A stretch of 64,000 bases of DNA from Promethearchaeia archaeon (GTDB lineage: Archaea; Asgardarchaeota; Lokiarchaeia; Sigyniarchaeales; SOKP01). This document shows, piece by piece, positions 255 to 46,212 of the stretch. Both the position numbers and the translations under genes were made by a program. The notes beneath the pieces were generated by a model, which did not search any database, was not told the origin of the DNA, and saw only the letters and a program-made list of their open reading frames with translations. Numbering within the stretch: position 1 is the stretch's first letter; the number at the start of each line of letters is the position of its first letter. The stretch spans positions 1 through 64,000 of the forward strand of contig JAHQWJ010000139.1 of the NCBI GenBank assembly GCA_029856125.1, in the 5' to 3' direction.

Positions 255-2513
255 ATGTTGAGGAAAACAAAAATTTTAATCGTAATTAACATAACATTGC
301 TGGTTTTTTTACTAGGGTTAAATTTGCGCCTAAATAACGCTAACGCTCAAAGTAATGGAGATTCTTTAACTATTCCAACTAATTTTAATTTGCTTGAATT
401 CGGGGAAAATAATGGTATTAAAGAAAATGTTAGCTCCATTGATATAGAAATACCCACATCTTCTTGGAATCTGAACGAAGTACAATTAAATTTTACCAAT
501 ATAAAGCTCGGGCAAGAAACTAAAACGATCGAAGATGGGTTTGATTATAAGTATAAACGTATTTATCGCCAAAATCCAACTTGGAGAACTCACGGTTATG
601 GAATTCAGATCAATGTGACTGAACCTACAATTCTCTATGGGGTTGATCTCTATGGTTATAAAAGTCCGTCAACGATCGAGACAATACAAGTTCAAATTAG
701 AGGGTATGACGATGTTGATAACAAACCAAACGACACGATCTATAGAAGTGCCACTTTGAATATGTCTAGCGATTCAGGATGGCACAAACAAATGTTTACT
801 AACTCAATTTCTTTAGAAACGGGTAGCTATTACTTAGTACTAAATGGATCGAATATCATAGATCCCGACACGGATTATTTTTGGGCTTATAATGATTTTA
901 ATCCATTTTACCCGAGTTTGCATTTATCAGAACTTATTAATCAATGGAGTGTTGGAGTTACAAATTCATCTCTCCTCTATAAATTGATTCAACAAGTAGA
1001 TAGAAGCTTTTTTCCGGAAGAAATTAACATGTCAGTTAATTTAAATGGGGATTCTTATAGCGTAAAAGACGGCGCGTCTTTAGGTTCAGGAAATATTCTA
1101 GTAACAAATTTAAACCAGAATCTAGATGGACCAAATCTAAACATTCCGATTATGATAAATAAATCGATTGAGTTAGATTTTAACCTAAATTATAGCGTAG
1201 GAATGAGTAAAAACTTAGAATGTGAGAGCAGTGTTATGATTGATGAAAATTCTTATAATAGTTGGAGTGTAACTCCTCAACTTTTGAGAGAATTCAGTAA
1301 TTATTCTGTTAAATTCTTTTTTCCGGAGAATTGGTTTGATTTAAGTGTGAAAAGAGATTCGGTTGATATCCAATCTCAGATTCAAATTGATAGTATAGAT
1401 CATTTTGTGTTTATTCCAAATAATACCATTTTAGATGGAGTTGATTGGTTGATTACGGCGAATTCGACAAGAAAATCATTCGACCTAGATGTTGATAGAA
1501 CGGAGTTTATAGCGGGTCAGGAATTGAAATTCTTTATCTCAGAGCCCTTGTTAAATGGAAATTATACTTTTATTTTAAACGACCCATTTCACGATGAGAT
1601 TTACACGAGTAATATTTCTATAGATTCACCTTCAGACTCAAATTCGTTTGCTTATATTATCCCATATAGTGCTATTGATGGAAATTACAAAGCATTTGTG
1701 TATTGGTTTAACGGTACTGATGCGGGCGTAGTAACTCAAATTTTTACAGTAATTTTGCCAGTTGTAATCGACTGGACTTTAATAATTGGTATAATAGTTA
1801 TAGTGGGATTAGGATCAGCGGTAACAGCTTCATCAATTATCCTTGCTAAGAAAAGTAAAAGAAAAAAAATTGCAGCAAAAGAAAAAACTATCAATAAGTT
1901 TATGGATATCTTAAATTTAAATTATGTAATTGTCATTGAAAAGAAATCTTCACTGAATGTGTATGATCAAGCTTTTACTGGGAAAAAATTCAACTCTACG
2001 CTTATTTCAGGCTTTTTAGAAGCAATCCGCACTTTTGGATTTGATATATCAGGGTCAGAGGAACGCTCACAAACAGTTAAACTCGAATATCAAAAATCAA
2101 AAATCTTAATGTCAGACTATAAACATTTCAGGCTCATATTTATTATGAAAGACTTACCTTCTTCACAGTTTTATGGAGTAATTGACGACTTGTCCTTAGA
2201 GATTGAGGAGAAATATGGAATGTATTTGAAAGAATTTAAGGGAAATCTCCAACCTTTTGAGGGTATTGAAAAATTATTGAGAAAACACCTTGGCACTGCC
2301 TTCTTATACCCCCTTAAGTTAACCGGAATTGGTAATATGAAAATTTCTCCTACAGAAAAGTCCTTAATTAATAAAGCAATCATTAAGATGAAACAAACTA
2401 AGCTAGATTCTTTTTACGTAACTCAATTAATTGGAGAGAAATCTTTTGATTCGAAGGAGATAGAGGCGTTGTATTCACTAATTATTAAAAGAGTTTTCAA
2501 TCCATTCTCCTAG
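255..2513 (+). CDS. Signal peptide/ectodomain - TM - cytosolic longin-like domain protein
   Basis: N-terminal hydrophobic signal, long Asn/Ser-rich ectodomain, TM near aa 500-530 (VVIDWTLIIGIIVIVGLGSAVTASSIILA) followed by KKSKRKK, then a C-terminal alpha/beta domain (YVIVIEKKSSLNVYDQ...LISGFLEAI); paralogous to 17461-19749. Confidence 0.75.
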   Translation: MLRKTKILIVINITLLVFLLGLNLRLNNANAQSNGDSLTIPTNFNLLEFGENNGIKENVSSIDIEIPTSSWNLNEVQLNFTNIKLGQETKTIEDGFDYKYKRIYRQNPTWRTHGYGIQINVTEPTILYGVDLYGYKSPSTIETIQVQIRGYDDVDNKPNDTIYRSATLNMSSDSGWHKQMFTNSISLETGSYYLVLNGSNIIDPDTDYFWAYNDFNPFYPSLHLSELINQWSVGVTNSSLLYKLIQQVDRSFFPEEINMSVNLNGDSYSVKDGASLGSGNILVTNLNQNLDGPNLNIPIMINKSIELDFNLNYSVGMSKNLECESSVMIDENSYNSWSVTPQLLREFSNYSVKFFFPENWFDLSVKRDSVDIQSQIQIDSIDHFVFIPNNTILDGVDWLITANSTRKSFDLDVDRTEFIAGQELKFFISEPLLNGNYTFILNDPFHDEIYTSNISIDSPSDSNSFAYIIPYSAIDGNYKAFVYWFNGTDAGVVTQIFTVILPVVIDWTLIIGIIVIVGLGSAVTASSIILAKKSKRKKIAAKEKTINKFMDILNLNYVIVIEKKSSLNVYDQAFTGKKFNSTLISGFLEAIRTFGFDISGSEERSQTVKLEYQKSKILMSDYKHFRLIFIMKDLPSSQFYGVIDDLSLEIEEKYGMYLKEFKGNLQPFEGIEKLLRKHLGTAFLYPLKLTGIGNMKISPTEKSLINKAIIKMKQTKLDSFYVTQLIGEKSFDSKEIEALYSLIIKRVFNPFS

Positions 2514-6414: not shown

Positions 6415-7938
6415 ATGAAAGAAAAAATGAATGTTTTATTTATTATTACTGACGCTCAACGGGCCGATCATTTAGGCTGTGCAGGAAATCCCATCCTAAA
6501 AACTCCAAACCTCGATAGGTTGGCAAGTGAGGGTGTGAGGTTTACTAATTATTATTGTACTAATCCAATTTGCATGCCTAACAGAGCGACTTTACTCACA
6601 GGATTATATCCAAATGTGCATGGAGTTAGAAGCAACGGAATTAATTTACCCGAAAATACTCCTACCATTACAAAAACGCTTCGAAAGAGCGGGTGGCATA
6701 CTGCTGCTATTGGAAAAATACACCATCAATTTTGGTTAGGCCCTTTTAAGCAAAAAACAAAATCTGCTGAGAGTTTGTTTAGTTGGGCGGTAGATAAAGG
6801 TAAAAACGATCCTGTAGGAAAGAATTTTCCCCTTCCCTATTACGGTTACAACGAAGTGGAAGTGATTTCAGGAAATGGTACTGTGTGCGCTGGCCATTAT
6901 ACAGAATGGTTGGAAGAAAGAGCCCCTAAAATTGCAGAAGAAATGAAAAAAAGAGTTCAGAATTACGACAATCTTTTTAGTTTATATTGCGAAGGAATAC
7001 CAGAAGATTTATATAATACTACCTATGTTCAAGAACGAACAATTGCGTTCCTCGAAAGACATGCCAAGGGTGAATATGGAGAAAAACCGTTTTATTTGCA
7101 TTGTTCTTTTCCAGATCCACATTATCCCCTATATCCGCCTAAGAGATTTCAAGACTTGTATAAACCAGAAGATATAGAACTCCCCGCAAGTTTTCAAGAT
7201 GCTAAGAATTTATATCACCATGAATATTTAGGATATCATTTGAAAAATCCGCCCTTTAAAAAAGCGTTCTTACGAGAATCTACGGAAGAGGAAGTTCGCA
7301 AGATTACCGCTTTAACATACGCAGCTATTGCGTACGTAGATTATAGCGTAGGTAAAATACTAGCGACTTTAGAAAAGTTGGGGTATTCAGAAAATACAAT
7401 GGTAATTTTTACCAGCGATCACGGCGATTTAATGGGCGATCATGGGTTATTATTCAAAGGGCCATGTCCTTTCGTAGGACCTTGTCACATCCCTTTAATT
7501 TGGAAAGTCCCCGGATTAACAGAGTCAGGAGTGTCTCAATCTTTAGTTAGTACTATCGATCTTCCTAAAACAATTCTTAGACTTTTAAATGTAAAAGAGC
7601 GACACCACCCACCTTATATGCAAGGTCTTGACATTTCACAAGTCTTAGAAAATCCAGCAAAGAAAATACGAGATTGCGTTTTAATAGAGAACGACGAAGA
7701 GGTAGGTCCTCTGGAAGCAAGGATAAGGCATTTAATTACTGAAGATTATAAGTTAACTGTTTACGAAGGGTTAGATAATTTTGGCGATATTTACGATCGT
7801 AAAAACGACCCTCATGAATTGAATAATTTATGGGATAACAAAGATTTCCGAGATAAAAGATTCAAGTTGGTAAATAAATTATTGCAAGAAAATCTTAAAG
7901 CACAATCCAAATTTCCAAAGAGAGTTGCTGCTACGTAA
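6415..7938 (+). CDS. Sulfatase (alkaline phosphatase superfamily), Cys type
   Basis: NVLFIITDAQRADHLGC metal-binding start, ICMPNRATLLTGLYP (CxPxR), FTSDHGDLMGDHGLL; no signal peptide. Confidence 0.92.
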   Translation: MKEKMNVLFIITDAQRADHLGCAGNPILKTPNLDRLASEGVRFTNYYCTNPICMPNRATLLTGLYPNVHGVRSNGINLPENTPTITKTLRKSGWHTAAIGKIHHQFWLGPFKQKTKSAESLFSWAVDKGKNDPVGKNFPLPYYGYNEVEVISGNGTVCAGHYTEWLEERAPKIAEEMKKRVQNYDNLFSLYCEGIPEDLYNTTYVQERTIAFLERHAKGEYGEKPFYLHCSFPDPHYPLYPPKRFQDLYKPEDIELPASFQDAKNLYHHEYLGYHLKNPPFKKAFLRESTEEEVRKITALTYAAIAYVDYSVGKILATLEKLGYSENTMVIFTSDHGDLMGDHGLLFKGPCPFVGPCHIPLIWKVPGLTESGVSQSLVSTIDLPKTILRLLNVKERHHPPYMQGLDISQVLENPAKKIRDCVLIENDEEVGPLEARIRHLITEDYKLTVYEGLDNFGDIYDRKNDPHELNNLWDNKDFRDKRFKLVNKLLQENLKAQSKFPKRVAAT

Positions 7939-9723: not shown

Positions 9724-10815
9724 ATGTCAAAAGAAGATATTCCAATGGCTCACGCTGGAATGGCAACAGAAATTGAACTCCAGAAGAAGTACTATGAAGA
9801 CGGTAGAGTATATATATTACAGATCGAATCTACATTAAAATGTCCACAATTATGCAATTACTGTTACGCAGGTAGTTTACCGGATAGCTCAGAAGGCTTA
9901 AAATCTGACAAAATCCGGAGCTTGCTAGATTCTGCTGCAGAAATGGGAGTAAAAATGATTGATTGGTTAGGTGGTGACCCTCTTGTAAGAAAAGATTGGT
10001 ATGAGTTATGCAAATACGCTTCTGATCTAGGGTTGGTTAATAACATATGGACTAGTGGAATACCCTTAGCAAATCCTGAAGTTGCACGGAAGGCAGTTGA
10101 AGTATCAGATAAAGGATTTATATCTACTCACTTGGATACTCTTGATACTGACCTGTATAACCTAATGCATGGAGGAAAACAATACGAAAATACCTCCGAT
10201 AATATAAATCTTATTTTAAAAGGGATAAAAAACACGATGGAAGCTGGAAAAAGTCCAGGGGCAATTGTAAATTGCATCACATATACCACACCTCTATCAA
10301 ATGGAGATGCGAAAGCTATGATTTCATATTTCCAAGAAAAATTTGGAATTAAAACTTGTTTGACGCTCTTTAATCCTGTAATTCACAATACTGGCAATCC
10401 TTCTTGGGAACCGAATAATGAACAGATTAAAGATGCTTACGAACATAGAGATCGAATTAATTATCCTGACGAATCCTCTTGTGGCCCAATGGATGTTTCA
10501 AAATTTTATTGCGGAACGGTTGTATGTGTTACTGCTGAAGGTTGGTTAGTGCCTTGCTCAGTTATAAGAACTAAAGAATTTGGAAATGTTCACGATGAAA
10601 GCTTAGAATTTCTTGTAGAAAAAACTAAACAACGTTTGCTGATGTTAGATTTTAGAGATCCTTCAAAATTACCAGGAAACTGTGTTTCTTGTTCAAATAA
10701 TTCAAATTGTTTTGGTTGCCGGAGTAGTGCCTATTATTATAATGGAGACATTATGGCGCCGGATCCAAAGTGTTTTCAATTCTCAGCTAAATCAAAAAAA
10801 GCGGTAGAAGAATGA
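9724..10815 (+). CDS. Radical SAM protein with SPASM-like C-terminal Fe-S domain
   Basis: CPQLCNYCY (CxxxCxxC), WLGGDPL; C-terminal CVTAEGWLVPC and CVSCSNNSNCFGCRSS...KCF. Confidence 0.88.
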   Translation: MSKEDIPMAHAGMATEIELQKKYYEDGRVYILQIESTLKCPQLCNYCYAGSLPDSSEGLKSDKIRSLLDSAAEMGVKMIDWLGGDPLVRKDWYELCKYASDLGLVNNIWTSGIPLANPEVARKAVEVSDKGFISTHLDTLDTDLYNLMHGGKQYENTSDNINLILKGIKNTMEAGKSPGAIVNCITYTTPLSNGDAKAMISYFQEKFGIKTCLTLFNPVIHNTGNPSWEPNNEQIKDAYEHRDRINYPDESSCGPMDVSKFYCGTVVCVTAEGWLVPCSVIRTKEFGNVHDESLEFLVEKTKQRLLMLDFRDPSKLPGNCVSCSNNSNCFGCRSSAYYYNGDIMAPDPKCFQFSAKSKKAVEE

Positions 10816-10909
10816 TTTTAGGCTTTAAATTTATCATAAATAATATATTATTGACATGTTCTAACTTTTAGATACAATCTATATAAAAATAATACGAGGA
10901 AAAAATTCA

Positions 10910-11719
10910 ATGGTTGATCATAAACGATATGACTTTAGTGTTAATGATGTTAGTGAAGTGTATGCTGGACCTGGTGGAAAACTCTGGGAATTACTTATGG
11001 GGGAGCAAATACATGTGGGTGGTCCAGAACAAACTGATTTACTTGCTAGAAAAGCAGAAATTGATAAGGCAGGGCAAAATTTTGCTTTACTAGATATTTG
11101 TTCTGCATTGGGAGGTCCTGCAAGACATTTAGCTGAAAAATATGGAATAAAAGTAGTAGGTCTTGATATTACTCCAGAGATGGTGTTGGAAGCAAAAAAA
11201 AGAACTGAAGGAAAACCCTACGCAAGTAAGATCGAATACAGAATTGGATCAGGACTCGATATCCCAGCTCATTTAAACTCATTTGAAGTTGTTTGGGGCC
11301 AGGACGCTTGGTGCTATATACGTGATAAGGTACGTCTGATAGAAGAGACATGGCGCGTGTTAAAACCAGGAGGTACATTAGCATTTACTGATTGGATATG
11401 GGGGTCCGTAAGCGTATCAGAAGAGGAATCTGACATTTTGATGGAGTTTATGGTATTTCCCAATTTACAAACTTTAAACGGATATGCTGAGTTAATAAAG
11501 GCTACAGGTTATGAATTGGTTGAAAAGGTGGATCTTCAAGAAGACTTTGCAAATCACATGGATATTTATTTAAATATACTTCAAAAAGCTAAACCGGATA
11601 TTGAGGCTGGTTTTGGCGTCGAGCTCTATGCAGCTGCAGAAAAGGGTGTCATCGCATGGCAACAGGCAGCCCATAACAAAAAAGTAGGAAGAGGACTTTG
11701 GATAGCAAAAAAACCATAA
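10910..11719 (+). CDS. SAM-dependent methyltransferase (phosphoethanolamine/sarcosine MT-like)
   Basis: LLDICSALGGPARHLAEKYGIKVVGLDIT, EETWRVLKPGGTLAFTDW; lacks the Cys pairs typical of ArsM. Confidence 0.85.
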   Translation: MVDHKRYDFSVNDVSEVYAGPGGKLWELLMGEQIHVGGPEQTDLLARKAEIDKAGQNFALLDICSALGGPARHLAEKYGIKVVGLDITPEMVLEAKKRTEGKPYASKIEYRIGSGLDIPAHLNSFEVVWGQDAWCYIRDKVRLIEETWRVLKPGGTLAFTDWIWGSVSVSEEESDILMEFMVFPNLQTLNGYAELIKATGYELVEKVDLQEDFANHMDIYLNILQKAKPDIEAGFGVELYAAAEKGVIAWQQAAHNKKVGRGLWIAKKP

Positions 11720-11745
11720 ATTCAATAAATTAATTTTTTTTTTTT

Positions 11746-12561
11746 ATGATGATGAAAAAATCCGTACTTATTTTTTCAAAAGTACCCGCTATCGGATTTG
11801 TAAAGACTAGGCTTTCACAAACTACAATATTATCTGATAGTGAAGTTAATTTAATAGCGGAAGCAATGTTAAAGGATACAATTATCATAGCTTCTCGAAG
11901 TAAAGCTAATATTATTGAAATCGGATATTATCCTGAGCACAGTTTTAACAAATTAGAGAAGATTGTTGATTCAATCCAAAAAACTCATGATTTAACGATA
12001 CCTATAAGTTATCATCTACAACAAGGATCATCTTTTGATGAGAGATTTGAATCAGTTGTACAAGCATCGATCGATAATGGAAATGATTTTATAGTCGTTC
12101 TTGGAGCAGATTTACCCTATATGCCGTCTTCATTAATTAATTCAGCATTTACCCACCTTAACTTAAAGGAAAATTTAAACAATATCGTGATCGGACCTGC
12201 TGGAGAAGGTGGTGTCTATTTGGTTGGACTTTCTCGAAGTTTTATTCCAAGTTGGTTTAGAAAATTTAAACTGTTTACGGATGGAGTTGAAATTATTCAA
12301 ATTGCTAAATTTTGTAAGTTAGAAGAGATCGAGCTATATTTGTTAACACCCTTAGTTGACATAGATATTGAAGAGGATTTGGTTTCACTTCTTGCTTTTA
12401 TTGAAGTATTAAAAATAGCAGAGAATAATGATAATTTTCATTATCCACATTATACTATTAAGGCGATAGAATCTCTTGGGCTTTATATCAAGGAAATTAA
12501 GGGTAAAACTAGAGATCGCACAATAGGTAAATATAAACCAAGTGATTCCAATGCTAGTTAG
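11746..12561 (+). CDS. DUF2064/TIGR04282-like nucleotidyl/glycosyltransferase
   Basis: VLIFSKVPAIGFVKTRL, FIVVLGADLPYMPSSLI, IGPAGEGGVYLVGL. Confidence 0.8.
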   Translation: MMMKKSVLIFSKVPAIGFVKTRLSQTTILSDSEVNLIAEAMLKDTIIIASRSKANIIEIGYYPEHSFNKLEKIVDSIQKTHDLTIPISYHLQQGSSFDERFESVVQASIDNGNDFIVVLGADLPYMPSSLINSAFTHLNLKENLNNIVIGPAGEGGVYLVGLSRSFIPSWFRKFKLFTDGVEIIQIAKFCKLEEIELYLLTPLVDIDIEEDLVSLLAFIEVLKIAENNDNFHYPHYTIKAIESLGLYIKEIKGKTRDRTIGKYKPSDSNAS

Positions 12562-13363
12562 TATAATAATTATTACATTAAATGAAGTAGAAAATCTTGA
12601 ATCAACAATAAATTCATCTAAAAAGGCTGCTTTAATGAGTACGGGGAAGAAATTACCTATAGAAGTAATCGTAAGTGATGGTGGCTCAACTGATGGTACA
12701 TTAGAGCTCGCTGAAGCGTTTGCTGATAAAATTGTTCATTCCCAAAAAGGAAGATATATGCAATTGAATGCTGGGGCGAAAGCTTCCAGGGGGGATATAT
12801 TACTATTTCTACATGGTGATACGTTATTACCAAGAGGAGCAATAATAAGAATCGTCAAAATTTTTCAAGATTCTAAAGTTTTAGGAGGTGCGTTTAAGAA
12901 ACATTGGAAGTGGAGTCCAGACATTAGCTTATCAAATTTTCTCGATTTCTCCGTAAAATTTTGGCAAGGATTTGGAAATTGGTTAACGCATCTGATTAAA
13001 GAATTTCCTGGGGATAATGCCTTTTTCATTAGACGAGAAATATTTGATCAACTAAATGGATTTTCTCCTATGTGGATTTGCGAGGATTTTGATTTAAGCA
13101 GGAGACTACTAAAATATTCGAAAAAAATTGAAAGAGATTTTTTTAAAAAAATAAAGTATAAGAAGAAAATAGCGTATATTCGCACACCAGTAAAAACATC
13201 CACTAGACGATTTGAAACTTATGGTTTCTTCAAATCTGTGTATTTGTGGTTCAAAATCTATTGGCTCTGGCGAGCAGGTTTTTCTCAAGATCAACTTAGA
13301 GAACTAGTCCCTAAATACATAACCATTCCTCAACATGCTAAGCGATCTATCCTAAGGTTTTAG
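12542..13363 (+). CDS. TIGR04283-like family 2 glycosyltransferase
   Basis: VIVSDGGSTDGTLELAE, GRYMQLNAGAKASRGDILLFLHGDTLLP, PVKTSTRRFETYGFFKS; likely start ATG 12551, overlapping the upstream gene. Confidence 0.82.
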   Translation: MIPMLVSIIIITLNEVENLESTINSSKKAALMSTGKKLPIEVIVSDGGSTDGTLELAEAFADKIVHSQKGRYMQLNAGAKASRGDILLFLHGDTLLPRGAIIRIVKIFQDSKVLGGAFKKHWKWSPDISLSNFLDFSVKFWQGFGNWLTHLIKEFPGDNAFFIRREIFDQLNGFSPMWICEDFDLSRRLLKYSKKIERDFFKKIKYKKKIAYIRTPVKTSTRRFETYGFFKSVYLWFKIYWLWRAGFSQDQLRELVPKYITIPQHAKRSILRF

Positions 13364-13504: not shown

Positions 13505-14428
13505 ATGGTATTAGAAATTTATCAAATAGTTATCTTAATTTCAATCGGTGCACTCGTAGGAATAAGTATAAGCTTTATTGGTCAAACTGGATTAGGAATT
13601 GTACTTCCTATTGTTCTGTTATTCACTGGGGATGTGTTTTTAGCTATTGCAATAAATCTATTAAATGATTTGCTTACATCTGCTGCTGTATCAATAGGAT
13701 ATTTTAGAAAAAAACAATTTAAATTAAGGTTAGATATCTTTTTAATAATCGTTATTGGTATAGTTACCACCTTTTTCGGTGTTTTTATTTTAATGACAAC
13801 ACCTCTAGGTTCCATTTACGGGTGGTTTGTTCCAATTTTCATTATGTTCTTAGGGGTTATCTTTCTAAAGAGGGGTTTTCCTACATACGAATCTGTTAAA
13901 AAAATGGCTCAGAACTGGGCAAGTAAAACGGTAAAAAAAGGAAAAAGTGAAGAAGAGCTAACCGAATTAAATAAAAAGATCGACGAGCAGTTAACATCTG
14001 AAACAGATACTATTAAAGGATTTATATCGCGTGGCTCACGAATGTACTATATTTTAGCGATTGGTTTTGGTATTTTTGTTGGGATCAATTCAGGGTTATT
14101 TGGAGCAAGTTCTGGATTAGTTTTTGTGTTAGCACTAGTTGTAATCTATGGATACCCTCTTAAAAAAGGAGTTGGTACAGCTCTAATTCTGAGCATGATA
14201 ATTGGCTTGTGTACTTTCTCATTTTACCAAATTTTCGGTATTACTATTAAAGGACGATTCTTTTTTAATTTCGAACTTTCGTTTTATCTAGCAATCGGTT
14301 CAATTACATCTGGCATAATTGCCTCTACATATATTCAAAAATTATCTGCTAAAACGATGGGAAGGGCTGTTGGAATTGTAATCTTCGTATTAGGAACCTT
14401 GGCGCTGGTTTTTTACTTTATAACTTAA
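13505..14428 (+). CDS. TauE/SafE-family membrane permease
   Basis: Polytopic; two related halves with GxxVGISISFIGQTG and GIFVGINSGLFGASSG signatures. Confidence 0.8.
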   Translation: MVLEIYQIVILISIGALVGISISFIGQTGLGIVLPIVLLFTGDVFLAIAINLLNDLLTSAAVSIGYFRKKQFKLRLDIFLIIVIGIVTTFFGVFILMTTPLGSIYGWFVPIFIMFLGVIFLKRGFPTYESVKKMAQNWASKTVKKGKSEEELTELNKKIDEQLTSETDTIKGFISRGSRMYYILAIGFGIFVGINSGLFGASSGLVFVLALVVIYGYPLKKGVGTALILSMIIGLCTFSFYQIFGITIKGRFFFNFELSFYLAIGSITSGIIASTYIQKLSAKTMGRAVGIVIFVLGTLALVFYFIT

Positions 14429-14509: not shown

Positions 14510-16039
14510 ATGAAAGAAAAAATGAATGTTTTATTTATCATTAGCGACCAGCATAGATATGACCACATGAGTTGTTCTGGAAATAAAATGTTAAAAACTC
14601 CGAACTTGGATAGATTGGCAAGCGAAGGAGTTCGATTTACAAACGCATTTTGTACAAACCCTATGTGTATGCCAAACAGAGCAACATTGTTAACGGGATT
14701 ATACCCTAATGTACATGGAGTTCGAAGCAACGGTATGATTCTTTCTCAAGATGTCCCAACAATTACTCAAACGTTAGTTGATAGAGGGTGGCACACAGCA
14801 GTTTTTGGAAAGTTGCATCATCAATTTAACACAGCTCCCTATAGAATCGGCGATAAATCTGCTGAATCTTTTTACGATTGGGTTTTCCAAAAAGAAGGGT
14901 GGTATCCCGTACGAGAGAATTTTCCTATTCCTTACTATGGGTACCAAGAAGTGGAAACTGTGATTGGACATGGAGCTTGCTTGACGGGTCATTATTTAGA
15001 TTGGTTGGAGGAAAGATCTCCAAGGCTAGCGGAGAACATGCGGAAAAGGTGGAAAAATATTGATAATTTCTTTTCTGTGTTTTCTGAACACGAATTACCT
15101 GTCGACTTATATTCGAGTGCTTATGTAACTGAACGTACTACCACTTTTTTGGAAAGGCACGCCAATGGAGATTATGGGAATAAGCCTTTCTATGTACATT
15201 GTTCATTCCCCGACCCTCATCAGTCTGTTTATCCCCCTGGAAAATATAGGAATTTGTATAAGCCTGAAGATGTTGAATTGCCAAAAAATTTCAAGGATCT
15301 AGAGAATTTGAGGAAGCATCCCTATCTAGCACCGTATATTAATGTTATGCCTGGGGCGATGTTAAGAGAAACAAATGAAGAAGAGCTTAGAAAATTCATA
15401 GCTTATACATACGGTACTGTGGTATTACTTGACGCTAGTATTGGACAGATCTTAGCGTCTTTAGAAAAATTAGGGTATGCTGACAACACAATCGTAGTAT
15501 ATAACAGTGACCACGGCGATTTAATGGGTGAGCATGGAATGCTTTTTAAAGGTCCATCAGCTTATATGGGCGTGTTTCGGATTCCTATGATTTGGAGAGT
15601 TCCTGGAATAACAAAACCTGCGGTAACAGATGCTTTAATGAGCTCTATAGACTACCCAAAGACGCTCCTAAACCTTTTAGGGATATCAAAAAGAAAACAA
15701 CCACCAGATATGCAAGGTTTTGACATGTCAGCTGTTTTAAAAGACCCCGAGAATTCTGCCAACCAACCACGAGATTGTTGCTACATTGAAAATGATGAGG
15801 AAGTTGGACCTCTGTACGAGAGATTAAGACATATAATAACAAAGGAATTTAAGTTAACTATATACGAAGGTCATAGAGATTATGGAGATCTTTTTGATAG
15901 AAAAAATGATTTAGATGAGTTGAATAACTTGTGGTACGATGAAAAATACAACGGGGTTAAATTTGAATTGGTTAACAAGCTACTCCATGAAAATCTCAGC
16001 GCACAAACTCGATATCCAAAAAGAATAGCTGGTACCTAA
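14510..16039 (+). CDS. Sulfatase, Cys type (paralogue of 6415-7938)
   Basis: NVLFIISDQHRYDHMSCSG, MCMPNRATLLTGLYPNVHGVRSNG, YNSDHGDLMGEHGML. Confidence 0.92.
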   Translation: MKEKMNVLFIISDQHRYDHMSCSGNKMLKTPNLDRLASEGVRFTNAFCTNPMCMPNRATLLTGLYPNVHGVRSNGMILSQDVPTITQTLVDRGWHTAVFGKLHHQFNTAPYRIGDKSAESFYDWVFQKEGWYPVRENFPIPYYGYQEVETVIGHGACLTGHYLDWLEERSPRLAENMRKRWKNIDNFFSVFSEHELPVDLYSSAYVTERTTTFLERHANGDYGNKPFYVHCSFPDPHQSVYPPGKYRNLYKPEDVELPKNFKDLENLRKHPYLAPYINVMPGAMLRETNEEELRKFIAYTYGTVVLLDASIGQILASLEKLGYADNTIVVYNSDHGDLMGEHGMLFKGPSAYMGVFRIPMIWRVPGITKPAVTDALMSSIDYPKTLLNLLGISKRKQPPDMQGFDMSAVLKDPENSANQPRDCCYIENDEEVGPLYERLRHIITKEFKLTIYEGHRDYGDLFDRKNDLDELNNLWYDEKYNGVKFELVNKLLHENLSAQTRYPKRIAGT

Positions 16040-16090: not shown

Positions 16091-17377
16091 TTAATCTTGT
16101 TTCAATTCCTTCAATCTTTCTTTTATTTGATGAGCGGCATTATTTATAATGTTCCCTGCTATGAAAGAGGTCTCATTTTTTACTTTTTCTTTTAAGATCT
16201 TAGCTTTTAACTTAAGAGCTTCAACTAAGGTTTCTCCATTTTTCTCATCAGTTCCTTTTACAACTATATCAAGAACGTGTAAAGCAAGTTGTTTTTTATC
16301 TTCAGAGTAAAGCTTTTTAGCGTGCTCCAAATATTTTTCTTCGCTATTAATTTTTAATAATTCCTGGGCAATTTCATCCGTTTTGGCTGGAAAAAGATCA
16401 GTAGGATTTCCACTGTTATACCATCCGTGGTATAGCCTATAAGTCGCATGGATAGCGAAACGGTAACAACCGTATATACCTCTTAAAATCTTATGGTTTC
16501 TGAATTTATCGGGGTAAATTTCTAGCATTTCGTGGTAGATTTCTTCGAACCATTTACCTTCGTTTAGCCTTTTTACCACTTCATCGTGGACAAAATGCAT
16601 AACTTCTGCTGTAATTGATAAAGCATCTCTAACTTTTTCCGTGCCTTCGATAAGTCTCCCATGACCGGGAGCTAAGTATTCTGCGTTTTTTTCTCTCATT
16701 TTTTCCATTGCTATAGCCCAATCTTTAGGATATCTCTGGACCTTAAAAGGATTACCAATATTAGGGAAGGACGAAACCATTAAATCGCCTGTGCAAATAG
16801 TCTTCTTTTCAGGGACCCATAACCAAATTGAATCGTCAGTTTCTCCTATATCATGGTAAATTTCGAAATTTACATCGCCTAATTTAAATAAATGTGAAGA
16901 TTCATTTCCTCTGAGAATAATAGTAGGGATTAATGTTTCGCGAGCGGAAACAACAGCATCTTGCCCCCTACCGCTTACAGAGGCAAATTGTTGCTTATTT
17001 ATCCAATCGTGATATTTATCTAGAATTTCGTATTTCTCAAATCGTCTGATACAATTCTCGTGAGCAATTACTTCGGGCATATCCCAACCTTTTTTTCTTA
17101 TTTCTTCTATAAAAGGACCATAGCCAAAAGCGTGGTCAAAATGCCCATGTGAATAGATAATATATTTAACAGGTTTACTAGTAAAACTCCTTACTTGATC
17201 GAAAGTTTTTTGGGCGAATTGCCTAATTGGAACATCGTAAATCACTAACCCTTCTTTTGTATCAAACACACAAGTATTTGCCATGCTTGGGACAAAAACG
17301 CAGGTGTTATTTTCAAAAGTGGATGCTGGAAACCACCCAAACCAATCACTCATACCATTAGTTATTGTCGGTACCAT
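16091..17377 (-). CDS. MBL-fold hydrolase with SdsA1-like alkylsulfatase dimerisation-type C-terminus
   Basis: YIIYSHGHFDHAFGYGPF metal motif, LAPGHGRLIEG; YRLYHGWYNSGNPTDLFP and following helical region. Confidence 0.75.
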   Translation of the reverse strand: MVPTITNGMSDWFGWFPASTFENNTCVFVPSMANTCVFDTKEGLVIYDVPIRQFAQKTFDQVRSFTSKPVKYIIYSHGHFDHAFGYGPFIEEIRKKGWDMPEVIAHENCIRRFEKYEILDKYHDWINKQQFASVSGRGQDAVVSARETLIPTIILRGNESSHLFKLGDVNFEIYHDIGETDDSIWLWVPEKKTICTGDLMVSSFPNIGNPFKVQRYPKDWAIAMEKMREKNAEYLAPGHGRLIEGTEKVRDALSITAEVMHFVHDEVVKRLNEGKWFEEIYHEMLEIYPDKFRNHKILRGIYGCYRFAIHATYRLYHGWYNSGNPTDLFPAKTDEIAQELLKINSEEKYLEHAKKLYSEDKKQLALHVLDIVVKGTDEKNGETLVEALKLKAKILKEKVKNETSFIAGNIINNAAHQIKERLKELKQD

Positions 17378-17460: not shown

Positions 17461-19749
17461 ATGAAAAGGGCAAGAGTTATTGATAGAATTAGTGTTATAT
17501 CGATCGTTCTATTTATGTTCTTAATTCTATTTTCAAAAGTAGATTTTGTTAACGCAAACGGCACTGGACCATCCCTCACGTTCAATACAAATTTCGAAAT
17601 GAACGAATATTCCAAATTTAATGAAACTCATCAAAATTTAAATTCAATTAATATTTCATTGCCATCATCTTCATGGTCTATTCAAGATATTGAGCTTAAT
17701 TTTACTGATATAAAATTTGGAAAAGAATTAAAAATTATTGAAAGTCAAAATTACACAGGTGATTATGATCGTGTTCATTATCAACAAGGTTCTGATCGAA
17801 CTCATGGGTTGGGTGTACAACTCAAATTAACTGAACCTACTACTCTTTACGGAGTTGATCTCTATGGTAAAAAAATAGAACGAGGTGTCACGATTATAGA
17901 AGTTCAAATTAGGGGCTATGACGCACTAAATAATAAACCTAATGGTTCAGTTTATTCGACAATGGAAATAAATATATCCATTACTGAAGGATGGCATAGA
18001 CAAAACTTTTCCAGCCCTATTTTATTGCCAAAAGGCAATTATTTTTTAGTAATTAATGGTTCGGATGTTGTATCTGTTAATGACGATAAAATTTGGTGGT
18101 ATTATAACAACATTAATCCTAGTGATCCGAGTTTATACACATCTTATTACAATGAAACTGATCAATGGAGCACAGGAGTACAGAATCATACATACTTACA
18201 TAAATTGATTCAGAAAGTAGAGACTCCGGTTTATCCAGAAGAAATTAATATGACTTTAAGCATTGATAATCAAGTGTATCCGATATCTAATACTACGAGC
18301 GAAGAAGAAGGATATTTAGGAAAGACTGTAGTTGACTTCTCACCGAATAGCGACAATTACCAAATTATCGTGAACAACCAAGCTTCAGAGAGTTTACTTT
18401 TTAACGTTAGTTGTTGCGTAACTCTTTCTAATAATCTTAATTTTCCATGTTCCGTTGCAGTCCAAGATGGTACAACAAATAAGTGGAGTGTAGAACCAAT
18501 AATCTCAAGACAACCCACCAATTATAGCGTTTTGTTCAATTACCCGAGTAGCTGGGAGAATATAAGCGTATTGAGAGATGATGTTCCTATTACATTAGGT
18601 GTCATAGTAGATACAACAGATCATAAAATTATTATTTTAAACGATTCAATAACCATCGGAGCAGATTGGGAGATCGTTGCTGATTCTACTAACGTTGAGT
18701 TTGATTTAAATGTTCAAATAGCAGAATATACCTTAGGTCAAGAGATAGAATTCTTACTTCCTGTAACCTCCTTTTCTGGAACATATATTTTTATTTTGCT
18801 TGATCCTGCTGGTATACCTCAACCGAATCAGACAATAACATTCCCCTCAGCAACTCCCTTTTCTTACAGCCTTAGCTTGTCTGATCTAGAAGGATTTTAT
18901 ACTGCCTATGTGTTCTGGTTTAGTGATACTGAAACAGATGCAGGCGTTCAATCACAAATTTTTGATGTTTCCATTGCAGAACCAACGCCAACGCCAACGC
19001 CTGAATTTCCGTTTCCTTTAATAATTTTAATTAGTGTTCTTGGAGCGGTAACAGTGGGATTGGCATCATTCATAGCATACAAGAGGATCCACTCGCGTCA
19101 AAGAACTAAACTCGAAAAATTCTTGAATCAATTTACAGATATTTCAAAAATCAACGAAATCATCGTGATTGATACGAAATCTGGAATCGATGTATTCTCC
19201 CAATCGTTTGGTGGAAGAAAAATAGATACTAGCTTAATTTCAGGATTCCTGCAAGCTATTAGTAACTTTGGAACGACGATTTCAGAAACAGCAAAGGAAT
19301 CTCGTACATTGAATATAGAGTACAAGGATTCAATAGTAATGCAAACTGAATTTGTAAATTTAAAATTAATTGTAACTTTAAAAGAAAACCCTTCTGCTAA
19401 TTTTAAATTTATAATGGAAGACTTAGCTTATGATATTTATAATCAATATGGAAAAGAGATTGACGACTTCGCAGGAATTTTGAAACCATTCCACAAAATG
19501 AAAGAATTGATAGAAAAGCATTTGAAAGTTTCGTTTCTTTACCAGCTAAAAATCGCAGAAAATCCTAAGATCAAAATAAATACGTCTGAGAAAGAGATGG
19601 TTAGTAAAGCCCGAACTTTTATGAAAGAAAATAATTTCAACTATTTCTATTCGCTTTATTTAATGCCAGAAAACACCTCTTCCCCAAAAGATTATCAAAC
19701 AATTTTTAATCTGATTGAAAAAGGAATATTTCAGCCGACTGAAAAATGA
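17461..19749 (+). CDS. Signal peptide/ectodomain - TM - cytosolic longin-like domain protein (paralogue of 255-2513)
   Basis: Same layout; shared LYGVDLYGKK, VQIRGYDALNNKPNG, LISGFLQAI, YQLKIAENPKIKI blocks; PTPTPTPEFPFP linker before TM. Confidence 0.75.
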   Translation: MKRARVIDRISVISIVLFMFLILFSKVDFVNANGTGPSLTFNTNFEMNEYSKFNETHQNLNSINISLPSSSWSIQDIELNFTDIKFGKELKIIESQNYTGDYDRVHYQQGSDRTHGLGVQLKLTEPTTLYGVDLYGKKIERGVTIIEVQIRGYDALNNKPNGSVYSTMEINISITEGWHRQNFSSPILLPKGNYFLVINGSDVVSVNDDKIWWYYNNINPSDPSLYTSYYNETDQWSTGVQNHTYLHKLIQKVETPVYPEEINMTLSIDNQVYPISNTTSEEEGYLGKTVVDFSPNSDNYQIIVNNQASESLLFNVSCCVTLSNNLNFPCSVAVQDGTTNKWSVEPIISRQPTNYSVLFNYPSSWENISVLRDDVPITLGVIVDTTDHKIIILNDSITIGADWEIVADSTNVEFDLNVQIAEYTLGQEIEFLLPVTSFSGTYIFILLDPAGIPQPNQTITFPSATPFSYSLSLSDLEGFYTAYVFWFSDTETDAGVQSQIFDVSIAEPTPTPTPEFPFPLIILISVLGAVTVGLASFIAYKRIHSRQRTKLEKFLNQFTDISKINEIIVIDTKSGIDVFSQSFGGRKIDTSLISGFLQAISNFGTTISETAKESRTLNIEYKDSIVMQTEFVNLKLIVTLKENPSANFKFIMEDLAYDIYNQYGKEIDDFAGILKPFHKMKELIEKHLKVSFLYQLKIAENPKIKINTSEKEMVSKARTFMKENNFNYFYSLYLMPENTSSPKDYQTIFNLIEKGIFQPTEK

Positions 19750-32449: not shown

Positions 32450-33007
32450 ATGTCAAAAATGGTAGGATCAAACAAATACTTTTTTAAAATTTGTATTGTC
32501 GGCGATTCAGAAGTAGGAAAAACCACTATTCTTAACCAATATTTGAAAAGGAGATTCGTACCTGACGCTCAAAGAACAATTGGCTCTAATTTTTTCGTAA
32601 AATACGTTAAAATCCCCGAAGTTGATAGTATGGTTATTCTGCAGTTCTGGGATTTGGCCGGACAACCGAGATTTAGATGGGTTCGATACGCGTTCTATAA
32701 AGGTGCCAAAGGTATAATATATGCTTTTGATTTAACTAGGAAAGATACTTTGGATCACATATTAACTTGGAAAGAAGAAGTGGAAAGTAAAATTGGAATC
32801 GTTCCAAATATACTCGTCGGAAACAAGGTAGATCTTATAACTTCAGAAAATAGAATAATTAATTTAGATGAAGTAAAGCACGTCAAACAACAAGTTTCCG
32901 CAAGCGAATATATAGAAACAAGCGCAAAAGTTGGAACCAAGGTAGAAGATGTCTTTTCCAAATTAACATTAGAAATATTTAAAGTTAACAAGGAGAACTT
33001 AGAATAA
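32450..33007 (+). CDS. Ras/Rab-like small GTPase
   Basis: GDSEVGKTT (G1), WDLAGQPRF (G3), GNKVDL (G4), ETSAK (G5). Confidence 0.95.
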   Translation: MSKMVGSNKYFFKICIVGDSEVGKTTILNQYLKRRFVPDAQRTIGSNFFVKYVKIPEVDSMVILQFWDLAGQPRFRWVRYAFYKGAKGIIYAFDLTRKDTLDHILTWKEEVESKIGIVPNILVGNKVDLITSENRIINLDEVKHVKQQVSASEYIETSAKVGTKVEDVFSKLTLEIFKVNKENLE

Positions 33008-35635: not shown

Positions 35636-36121
35636 ATGCTAGTTAGTTTAAGGGAAGTCTATCTACCGGTTATGATATTTTCGATTATCTTAGACTTTCA
35701 ATTAGCAATATATTTTTTATATTTATATGGTAAACACCGAAAAGATAAAATCGACAAGCTTTTTCTCATGAGGGCTTCTGGAATTTGCGTCTATTATAAA
35801 TTTTTCAAGGATCCAGCAAATAGACGTGGAGATCAAATCATGTCCGGTGCTATAAATACTATTAAAATGATGTTAAAAGAAATCTCTCAGGATGAAGGGG
35901 AGATGGTCATAGAAAAAGAAGGAAAAGTGCTAATAACATACCAAGGCAAATATATTACTGGAGTAATTGTAGCAGATCAAAACTTAAGCTCCCTTAATTT
36001 CTTGCTCAAACGCTTTATTGAGAAAGTAGAATTCCTATATTCTAATATTATACGAGATTGGGATGGAGCTATGGAAATATTTCTCCCAATTGAAAATATT
36101 ACTAAAGAGATCTTCTTTTAA
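35636..36121 (+). CDS. TM-anchored longin/roadblock-like protein
   Basis: N-terminal hydrophobic segment; IDKLFLMRASGICVYYKFF...IMSGAINTIKMMLKEIS...YITGVIVAD...FIEKVEFLYSNII. Confidence 0.65.
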   Translation: MLVSLREVYLPVMIFSIILDFQLAIYFLYLYGKHRKDKIDKLFLMRASGICVYYKFFKDPANRRGDQIMSGAINTIKMMLKEISQDEGEMVIEKEGKVLITYQGKYITGVIVADQNLSSLNFLLKRFIEKVEFLYSNIIRDWDGAMEIFLPIENITKEIFF

Positions 36122-44098: not shown

Positions 44099-46081
44099 TT
44101 AGTTTTTGTATTCATCTGAGGATTTCATTTCATCTTCATCCTCGATTTCTTCATCATCTTCGGGCTTAGGCTTATAAAAAGGTTCTGAGACTATATCATG
44201 TTCTGGTTCGGGAATAGGTTCGTATACTGGTTCCGGTTCTGATTCCGGCTCTGGTGTAGCTTCATATACTGGTTTTGATTCTGGCTCTGATGTAGCTTCA
44301 TATACTGGTTTTGATTCTGGCTCTGGAGTAGGTTCATATACTGGTTCTGGTTCCGGTTCTGGCGTAGGTTCGTACATTGTTTCATATACTGGTTCCGGTT
44401 CTGGTTCCGGCTCAGTTTCTAGCGTAGGTTCATATACTGGTTCTGGTTCTGGCGTAGGTTCATATACTGGTTCAGGCTCTGGCGTAGGTTCATATACTGG
44501 TTCAGGCTCTGGCGTAGGTTCATATACTGGTTCTGGCGTAGGTTCATATACTGGTTCTGGTTCTGGAGTAGGTTCATATACTGGTTCTGGTTCTGGAGTA
44601 GGTTCATATACTGGTTCTGGTTCCGGTTCTGGCGTAGGTTCGTACATTGTTTCATATACTGGTTCCGGTTCTGGTTCCGGTTCTGGTTCCGGTTCTGGTT
44701 CCGGCTCAGTTTCTAGCGTAGGTTCATATACTGGTTCTGGTTCTGGCGTAGGTTCATATACTGGTTCAGGCTCTGGCGTAGGTTCATATACTGGTTCTGG
44801 TTCAGGCTCTGGCGTAGGTTCATATGCTGGTTCAAGTTCAGGCTCTGGAGTAGATTCATATACTGGTTCTGGTTCCGGTTCAGTTTCTAGCGTAGGTTCA
44901 TATACTGGTTCTGGTTCTGGCGTAGGTTCGTACATTGTTTCATATACTGGTTCCGGTTCTGGTTCCAGTTCTGGTTCCGGCTCAGTTTCTAGCGTAGGTT
45001 CATATACTGGTTCCGGCTCTGGCGTAGGTTCATATGCTGGTTCAAGTTCAGGCTCTGGAGTAGATTCATATACTGGTTCTGGTTCCGGTTCAGTTTCTAG
45101 CGTAGGTTCATATACTGGTTCTGGTTCTGGTTCTGGCGTAGGTTCATATACTGGTTCAGGCTCTGGAGTAGATTCATATACTGGTTCTGGTTCCGGCTCA
45201 GGTTCAGGAGTAGATTCATATACTGGTTCTGGTTCAGGTTCTGGCGTAGGTTCATATACTGGTTCTGGCTCTGGAGTAGGTTCATATAATGGTTCTGGCT
45301 CTGGAGTAGGTTCATATAATGGTTCTGGCTCTGGAGTAGGTTCATATACTGGCTCAGGCTCTGGAGTAGGTTCATATACTGGCTCAGGCTCTGGAGTAGG
45401 TTCATATACTGGCTCAGGCTCTGGAGTAGGTTCATATACTGGCTCAGGCTCTGGAGTAGGTTCATATACTGGCTCAGGTTCCCGCTCAGGTTCAGGAGTA
45501 GGTTCATATACTGGTTCTGGTTCCGGTTCTGGGGTAGGTTCATATACTGGTTCTGGTTCTGGTTCTTGGGTAGGTTCATATACTGGTTCCGGTTCTGGTT
45601 CTTGGGTAGGTTCATATACTGGTTCTGGTTCTGGCTCAGCTCTTTTTTTTACAATGGGTTCATCAATTATATATTTTTTATCAGGAGCTTTTTGAGTTAT
45701 CGTAAATGGATTACTCTCAGGTTGTATCATTTGAGGTCCCAGAAAAATGTTTTTTGGTTTTATTTTTTTCTTATCTATTAGTAGTTCTAATTCGAAGCTT
45801 CCTGGAGTGAGGAAATCTACGCCATCAATATCATTTTTTAATGTAGTATCCCATTCAATCGTTTTACTCTCTGATTTTTTTATATTATCCTTAGATTCTG
45901 GTCTGAGCTTTTTAGTTAGTAAAACTTTAGTCTGAAATATTATCTTTCCTTGAAAATCGTGTTCCTTCTTCCCTTTAGTTGTCCACCTCAGGTGAAAACC
46001 ATCAGAATGTTTCCATAAAACATATCCTAAGAATTGACCTGAACTGAAATCTGTACGACCTTTGATCTCTTTTACATTCAT
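44099..46081 (-). CDS. N-terminal globular domain + very long Pro/Glu/Val/Tyr repeat protein
   Basis: True start probably ATG at 46081 ([12 protein letters not shown]); ([12 protein letters not shown])n over about 470 aa. Confidence 0.75.
44190..45640. repeat. In-frame tandem repeat array (ggttcatatactggttctggttctggcgta-like units)
   Basis: Direct reading; units vary in length by multiples of 3 or 6 nt. Confidence 0.95.
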
Positions 46082-46212
46082 TTTTATTTCTCTTAAATTA
46101 TGAAGTAATTTCAGATAAATTATGTAACAATTTGTTAATAAATTTTTACTAAACGAAAAAGTATTTGAGATATGTTTTGTTCTATTTCTTATTAAAAAAT
46201 TAGGTAACAAAA

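Follow-up and report, generated by a model that had tools for sequence, protein, structure and literature searches.

The window, meaning the whole 64,000-nucleotide stretch of Lokiarchaeial DNA analysed here, carries an intact open reading frame on the forward strand at positions 255–2513. The frame has 752 codons, starts with ATG, ends with TAG, and is preceded by an in-frame stop codon just upstream. It is not a chance reading frame because its orthologues are syntenic, its longin part is constrained, and the window contains a similarly built paralogue. The features of the locus are as follows:

255–2513, + strand: receptor-like longin protein (P0001), 752 aa, defined by the open reading frame and homologues
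255–350, + strand: signal peptide, residues ~1–32, from sequence; corresponds to the first hydrophobic segment across the family
351–1019, + strand: N-terminal ectodomain module, residues ~33–255, swapped between strains
1020–1769, + strand: membrane-proximal ectodomain module, residues ~256–505, partly swapped separately
1779–1844, + strand: transmembrane helix, residues 509–530, followed by basic AKKSKRKK, from hydropathy
1875–2294, + strand: cytosolic longin domain, residues 541–680, assigned by profile comparison, model and fold search
2295–2510, + strand: winged-helix-like C-terminal extension, residues 681–752, from the secondary structure of models
6415–7938, + strand: sulfatase (PF00884 and SGSH_C), recurrent receptor neighbour
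13505–14428, + strand: TauE/SafE sulfite exporter family protein, recurrent neighbour
14510–16039, + strand: second sulfatase
16091–17377, − strand: alkyl-sulfatase-like MBL protein (PF14863 and PF00753), recurrent neighbour
17461–19749, + strand: paralogue P0002 of the same architecture, 762 aa, 39% identical over the whole length

Architecture of the protein and its family

The protein has the plan of a type I membrane protein, with a signal peptide, an ectodomain, one transmembrane helix, a basic inner flank, and a cytosolic domain, as determined from hydropathy and flank charge. The signal segment (MLRKTKILIVINITLLVFLLGLNLRLNNANAQ, residues ~1–32) and the single transmembrane helix with KKSKRKK on its inner side had been described in the initial annotation, and both are borne out: the helix of residues 509–530, followed by AKKSKRKK, is the sole hydrophobic helix besides the signal peptide. 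The same holds for the predicted Asn/Ser-rich ectodomain of ~470 residues (33–505), which contains 10.4% Asn and 16.9% Ser and Thr. Its 16 N-x-S/T sequons compare with 8.0 in shuffled sequences (p = 0.0024), and the ectodomain of P0002 has 18 as against 7.6 (p = 0.0004). The cytosolic part of the 752-residue protein contains one sequon, compared with 1.1 in shuffles, and the excess is absent from the cytosolic parts and from six other window proteins in the same comparison. The limitation of the excess to the outer part fits an exported ectodomain, which, judged from these motifs, is probably N-glycosylated.

The AlphaFold models are poor, with pLDDT values of 54.6 for the tail and 50.7 for the whole protein, because the alignments held only seven sequences. 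The ectodomain, annotated initially as of the beta type, is nearly all beta in the model, at low confidence. None of the domains of the protein reaches a Pfam cut-off, and searches of Pfam, NCBIfam, and PDB sequences returned no significant match for the tail or the ectodomain. Residues 105–196 of the ectodomain have a weak match to PHR/DUF4082, below the Pfam cut-off. Weak matches to OXA beta-lactamase, PhiKZ gp85, and TNFR_16_TM were judged to be due to chance or transmembrane composition, and Foldseek matches of the full-length model to phage baseplate and fibre proteins, immunoglobulin chains, and complement were disregarded as beta matches of low confidence.

Orthologues of the gene are 46–86% identical to it, and many genomes have them in a matching gene neighbourhood. 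The genome that contains the window encodes two more proteins of the same plan, of 1,387 and 772 residues, and a soluble 458-residue protein that combines a longin domain with a winged helix. Matches to P0001 were found in 54 of 60 relatives, and 144 of 149 genomes sampled from the phylum contain a match to the profile of the cytosolic tail. The sequence relatives on named contigs all belong to Candidatus Lokiarchaeota/Lokiarchaeia metagenome-assembled genomes (MAGs). Each of the 22 long members that were read has a single transmembrane helix ~38 residues before the longin domain (27 or fewer in the 772-residue protein), and a signal segment is present in most of the long members that are complete at the 5′ end. 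Their ectodomains span ~500–1,400 residues, with weak matches to Big_1 and invasin D3. Long members are also present in complete single-contig genomes of the same order, with open frames of up to 3,033 residues in one single-contig genome. Of the surface receptor or adaptor suggested initially, membership in a family of type I membrane proteins (single transmembrane helix, signal segment in most) is supported; the role as a receptor is considered below. At loci L094, L095, L096, and L099, as many as five receptor paralogues stand in tandem, interspersed with sulfatase, TauE, and MBL genes.

The longin domain and its proposed link to small GTPases

The longin fold serves small GTPases in eukaryotes. 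The cytosolic region of the 255–2513 protein has an alpha/beta domain in the longin order with a helical C-terminus. This domain has no direct match above the cut-off of a Pfam longin family; the link runs through intermediate Lokiarchaeal longins. A profile built from 22 tails matched at 18 sites in the genome that contains the window; five of these are full-length tails, and the other 13 are shorter and mostly confined to the core. One match (L048, E = 3e-9) is an N-terminal longin domain in fusion with an Arf-like GTPase (Pfam Arf, 1e-15). Others are small soluble proteins, among which L055 passes the Pfam cut-off for Fuz_longin_1 (PF19036), the first longin domain of Fuz, Mon1, and HPS1. 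PF19036 is above the cut-off in 31 of 40 relatives, compared with none of 14 control genomes. HHalign comparison of 61 tails with the PF19036-positive small Lokiarchaeal longins gave a probability of 96.3 (P = 1.8e-9) over 117 columns, which is the whole core, whereas eight unrelated control families gave P values of 0.075–0.89. Membership in the Roadblock/LC7 family (PF03259) was rejected, as the comparison with 20 Lokiarchaeal roadblocks gave a probability of 0.3 (P = 0.18). The dN/dS ratio of the longin part is ~0.1–0.2. By sequence comparison, residues 541–680 are a longin domain and not a roadblock domain.

In the low-confidence tail model, strand 2 of the longin order β1-β2-α1-β3-β4-β5-α2-α3 is not formed. 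The initial annotation had proposed a domain like those of longin or roadblock folds, and had set as a check whether the predicted fold is unrelated to both. That was not the outcome: the leading Foldseek matches of this model are mainly longin or roadblock chains, headed by the longin domain of Sec22b (probability 1.00, E = 0.011), although the search, in which no match reached E = 0.001 or better, is taken as supporting evidence alone. Further matches include Mon1-Ccz1, TRAPPII, VAMP7, AP sigma subunits, and LAMTOR. The longin half of the proposal is upheld by the profile comparison, the Pfam-positive intermediates, and the fold search, and the roadblock half fails by sequence. A longin SNARE is ruled out, since the order is ectodomain, transmembrane helix, longin, and winged helix, not N-terminal longin, SNARE coiled coil, and C-terminal transmembrane helix. 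Residues 681–752 are modelled, at low confidence, as three helices and short strands resembling a truncated winged helix, and the segment is described as winged-helix-like from this predicted secondary structure.

Longin domains also occur in other settings. A 161-residue protein in the window (35636–36121) is a further membrane-tethered longin, with a transmembrane helix at its N-terminus and the longin core (profile E ~2e-7) in the cytosol. The window's own genome encodes multi-transmembrane proteins with a C-terminal cytosolic longin domain, L046, L052 (C4:1827, C126:228544), and L045 (C59:752), two of which have ~7 transmembrane helices by eye; they are possibly further longin-tailed receptors. 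In the soluble protein L044 (C63:116815), a winged helix (HTH_47) comes after the longin core, whose match to PF13774 (E = 1.5e-4) is below the cut-off.

The neighbourhoods of the 255–2513 gene and its orthologues were searched, and no adjoining GTPase gene was found. The GTPases at 32450 and 60390 are 30–58 kb from the gene, and nothing connects them to it. The gene of the soluble 458-residue protein (L107:8035–9408 and orthologues) directly precedes that of a Ras-like GTPase, in the same orientation, in five genomes of the genus, and in three more a single gene separates the two; the pairing is not kept outside the genus. From this gene order, the two are a candidate GTPase-regulator pair. 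At loci L164–L167, four long receptors of 1,100–1,350 residues lie in a conserved block with a GTPase gene 2–4 kb away. Longin and roadblock proteins are dimeric platforms that bind small GTPases, mostly within GEFs (PMC10933270). Based on the longin-Arf-like fusion, the GTPase pairing of the soluble relative, and the L164–L167 block, we infer that the tail acts on a small GTPase, by recruitment or regulation; by analogy with these proteins, GTPase coupling of the 255–2513 protein is plausible. The L164–L167 block also contains genes for ~420- and ~275-residue proteins downstream of the receptor, followed by an oppositely oriented gene for a ~187-residue protein and the GTPase gene.

Exchange of ectodomain modules between strains

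The most telling property of the 255–2513 gene is the exchange of its ectodomain. The locus is conserved: at 15 of 16 orthologous loci a gene for a U32 peptidase precedes it, and at 11 of 16 leuD or the sulfatase follows downstream. Between the window and strain G002, the neighbouring genes differ by dS values of 0.05–0.32, and the signal peptide by 0.15. The two halves of the ectodomain, however, have dS values of 2.42 and 1.22 (44% and 51% amino-acid identity), which return to 0.30 in the transmembrane helix, 0.34 in the longin domain, and 0.21 in the winged-helix part (86–91% identity). In P0002, compared between G000 and G002 on the same two contigs, dS is 0.15–0.36 throughout with no step, and the ectodomain has not been exchanged, which argues against an assembly or alignment artefact.

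Other strain pairs differ in other segments. Strains G003 and G009, whose U32 proteins are 95% identical, have pS values of 0.59–0.74 in codons 51–250 and of 0.07–0.23 after codon 250. Strains G002 and G008 (U32 79% identical) have pS values of 0.13–0.29 in the ectodomain, but pS is 0.69 over codons 1–50 and reaches 0.56 in the tail. Since these two genes are close in the ectodomain and distant elsewhere, the cassette moved between diverged lineages. The breakpoints are near codons 45, 250, and 450.

Trees of the N-module, C-module, and tail from 17 orthologues conflict, with p-values of the AU test down to <1e-37. Three groupings were rejected. Imposing the tail clade G003/G010/G009/G014/G022 on the N-module lowers lnL by 145 (p = 2e-4), imposing the N-module clade G016/G009/G014/G022 on the tail lowers it by 96 (p = 2e-38), and imposing G000/G013/G002 on the two ectodomain modules lowers it by 127–150; the tested clades were chosen after the identity matrices had been seen, which makes the p-values optimistic, but the likelihood gaps are large. 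The ectodomain at the 255–2513 locus is a recombining cassette, and the tail is kept. The average dN/dS of the ectodomain is roughly 0.2–0.5, and domain averages do not support positive selection, the maximum being ~0.5, with two short segments near 1 on few changes. The variation of the ectodomain is mainly due to the import of old divergent modules, not to visible positive selection on point changes. The dS contrast and the incongruent module trees display the trait of a polymorphic receptor, in which the outer domain is swapped on a constant body. The exchangeable ectodomain shows where selection acts and supplies natural chimeras for swap experiments.

Proposed function and alternative explanations

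The architecture, longin homology, pattern of constraint, and module exchange were established computationally; surface display, ligand binding, and GTPase coupling are inferred. We consider it reasonably likely that the 255–2513 protein is a type I receptor or adhesin of Lokiarchaeia with a variable binding ectodomain and a constant longin-winged-helix output tail, which likely acts on a small GTPase. The beta-rich, probably N-glycosylated ectodomain would bind something outside the cell, and one helix would span the membrane. The longin domain and the winged-helix-like tail would form the constant cytosolic output module, most likely a platform that dimerises and either recruits a small GTPase or regulates it. 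Selection would hold the tail fixed while letting the ectodomain vary. New ectodomain modules would enter by homologous recombination at the locus, so that specificity for the ligand or partner could be swapped while the inner wiring stays.

The protein could alternatively serve adhesion or attachment at the cell surface, with variation that helps to evade viruses or to recognise partner or kin cells. Its tail would then tether it to the cytoskeleton or a coat, and GTPase signalling would play no part. Exchange of whole ectodomains on a constant tail is the kind of trace that arms races or self-recognition leave, longin domains double as non-GTPase interaction modules, for example in SNAREs (PMC10933270), and Lokiarchaeal cells have prominent surface proteins (PMC9834061). 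We regard this function as possible but not probable, because the nearest characterised use of the same longin type in the same genome is the fusion to a GTPase, and because the domain-average dN/dS of the ectodomain, at most ~0.5, gives no direct sign of positive selection. The module mosaic is very unlikely to be an artefact of chimeric metagenome assembly. The compared genomes are mostly fragmented MAGs, but the swapped modules are common to several independent MAGs at 70–93%, not 100%, identity; the reading frames are all intact, the flanking genes are syntenic, and P0002 has no such break on the same contigs.

The sulfur-ester genes (sulfatase PF00884, TauE/SafE, and alkyl-sulfatase-like MBL) recur beside receptors in several genera, which makes a sulfated ligand possible. 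The protein may further sense sulfated compounds, either glycans or alkyl sulfates, and control the nearby sulfatase and sulfite-export genes, and the winged-helix-like end of its tail would suit such control. We consider this unlikely: the sulfatases have no evident signal peptides, so their substrate would need prior uptake, the neighbours of the long relatives are quite different, and adjacency by itself is no proof of regulation. It is similarly improbable that the protein is a cargo receptor or adaptor in ESCRT- or adaptin-like trafficking, whose longin-winged-helix tail recruits a membrane-remodelling complex so that bound cargo is internalised or shed. A survey of ESCRT proteins mentions Asgard proteins that combine longin with Ig-like, HTH/PCI, and Vps28-C or adaptin-appendage domains (PMC10936438), but Pfam searches found no Vps28-C, appendage, or adaptin domain in the 255–2513 protein, and no ESCRT gene was recognised near its gene.

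The proposed receptor is assembled from known parts in a new order and has an unexpected evolutionary behaviour. The first longin domain of Mon1/Fuz/HPS1 (PF19036) is the best-matching named family for the small Lokiarchaeal longins that link to the tail. In eukaryotes, this family is found in soluble subunits of Rab-GEFs that contain several longins, whereas the 255–2513 protein is itself below that Pfam cut-off. The longin SNAREs Sec22b, the top Foldseek match, and VAMP7 share with it a membrane anchor and the longin fold, which is predicted here at low confidence. However, the 255–2513 protein has the transmembrane helix before the longin domain, a large ectodomain, and no SNARE motif between helix and longin domain. 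TraA of Myxococcus is a polymorphic bacterial recognition receptor with a variable outer part on a constant body; the two proteins are unrelated, and the likeness is in this build. Longin domains of Lokiarchaeum, some fused to GTPases and others soluble, have been described previously (PMC4917890; structural work in PMC10933270). The longin-Arf-like fusions and soluble longins have a core homologous to that of the 255–2513 protein and occur in the same genomes, but here the longin domain lies on the cytosolic side of a type I membrane protein, with a winged-helix-like extension. The Asgard multidomain proteins with longin, Ig-like, and HTH/PCI domains in the ESCRT survey (PMC10936438) have the same kinds of parts but an ESCRT context, and the available part of that survey describes no receptor with a signal peptide, a single transmembrane helix, and an exchanged ectodomain. 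Searches of an open-access library that lacks most subscription journals and bioRxiv returned no account of longin tails on type I surface proteins, nor of Asgard archaea exchanging ectodomains.

Asgard archaea are close kin of eukaryotes and have dozens of small GTPases and longin or roadblock proteins. To our knowledge, hardly any upstream inputs of this GTPase machinery have been identified. A broad Asgard family of surface proteins with longin tails is a concrete candidate for the missing connection from the outside to the GTPases, and Lokiarchaeal cells may wire variable outer sensors to eukaryote-like GTPase machinery. More tentatively, Lokiarchaeia might possess a family of transmembrane receptors that signal to Ras/Arf-type GTPases through longin tails, with one locus encoding a polymorphic recognition receptor with traded outer modules. 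If this were true, both receptor-to-small-GTPase signalling and polymorphic surface recognition would predate eukaryotes.

Elsewhere in the window, positions 9724–13363 contain in a row genes for a radical SAM protein, a SAM methyltransferase, and two small sugar-transferase-like proteins, the last two recognised by eye, and this row resembles arsenosugar-type clusters. Positions 44099–46210 encode a protein that consists largely, over ~500 residues, of repeats of a 10-residue type.
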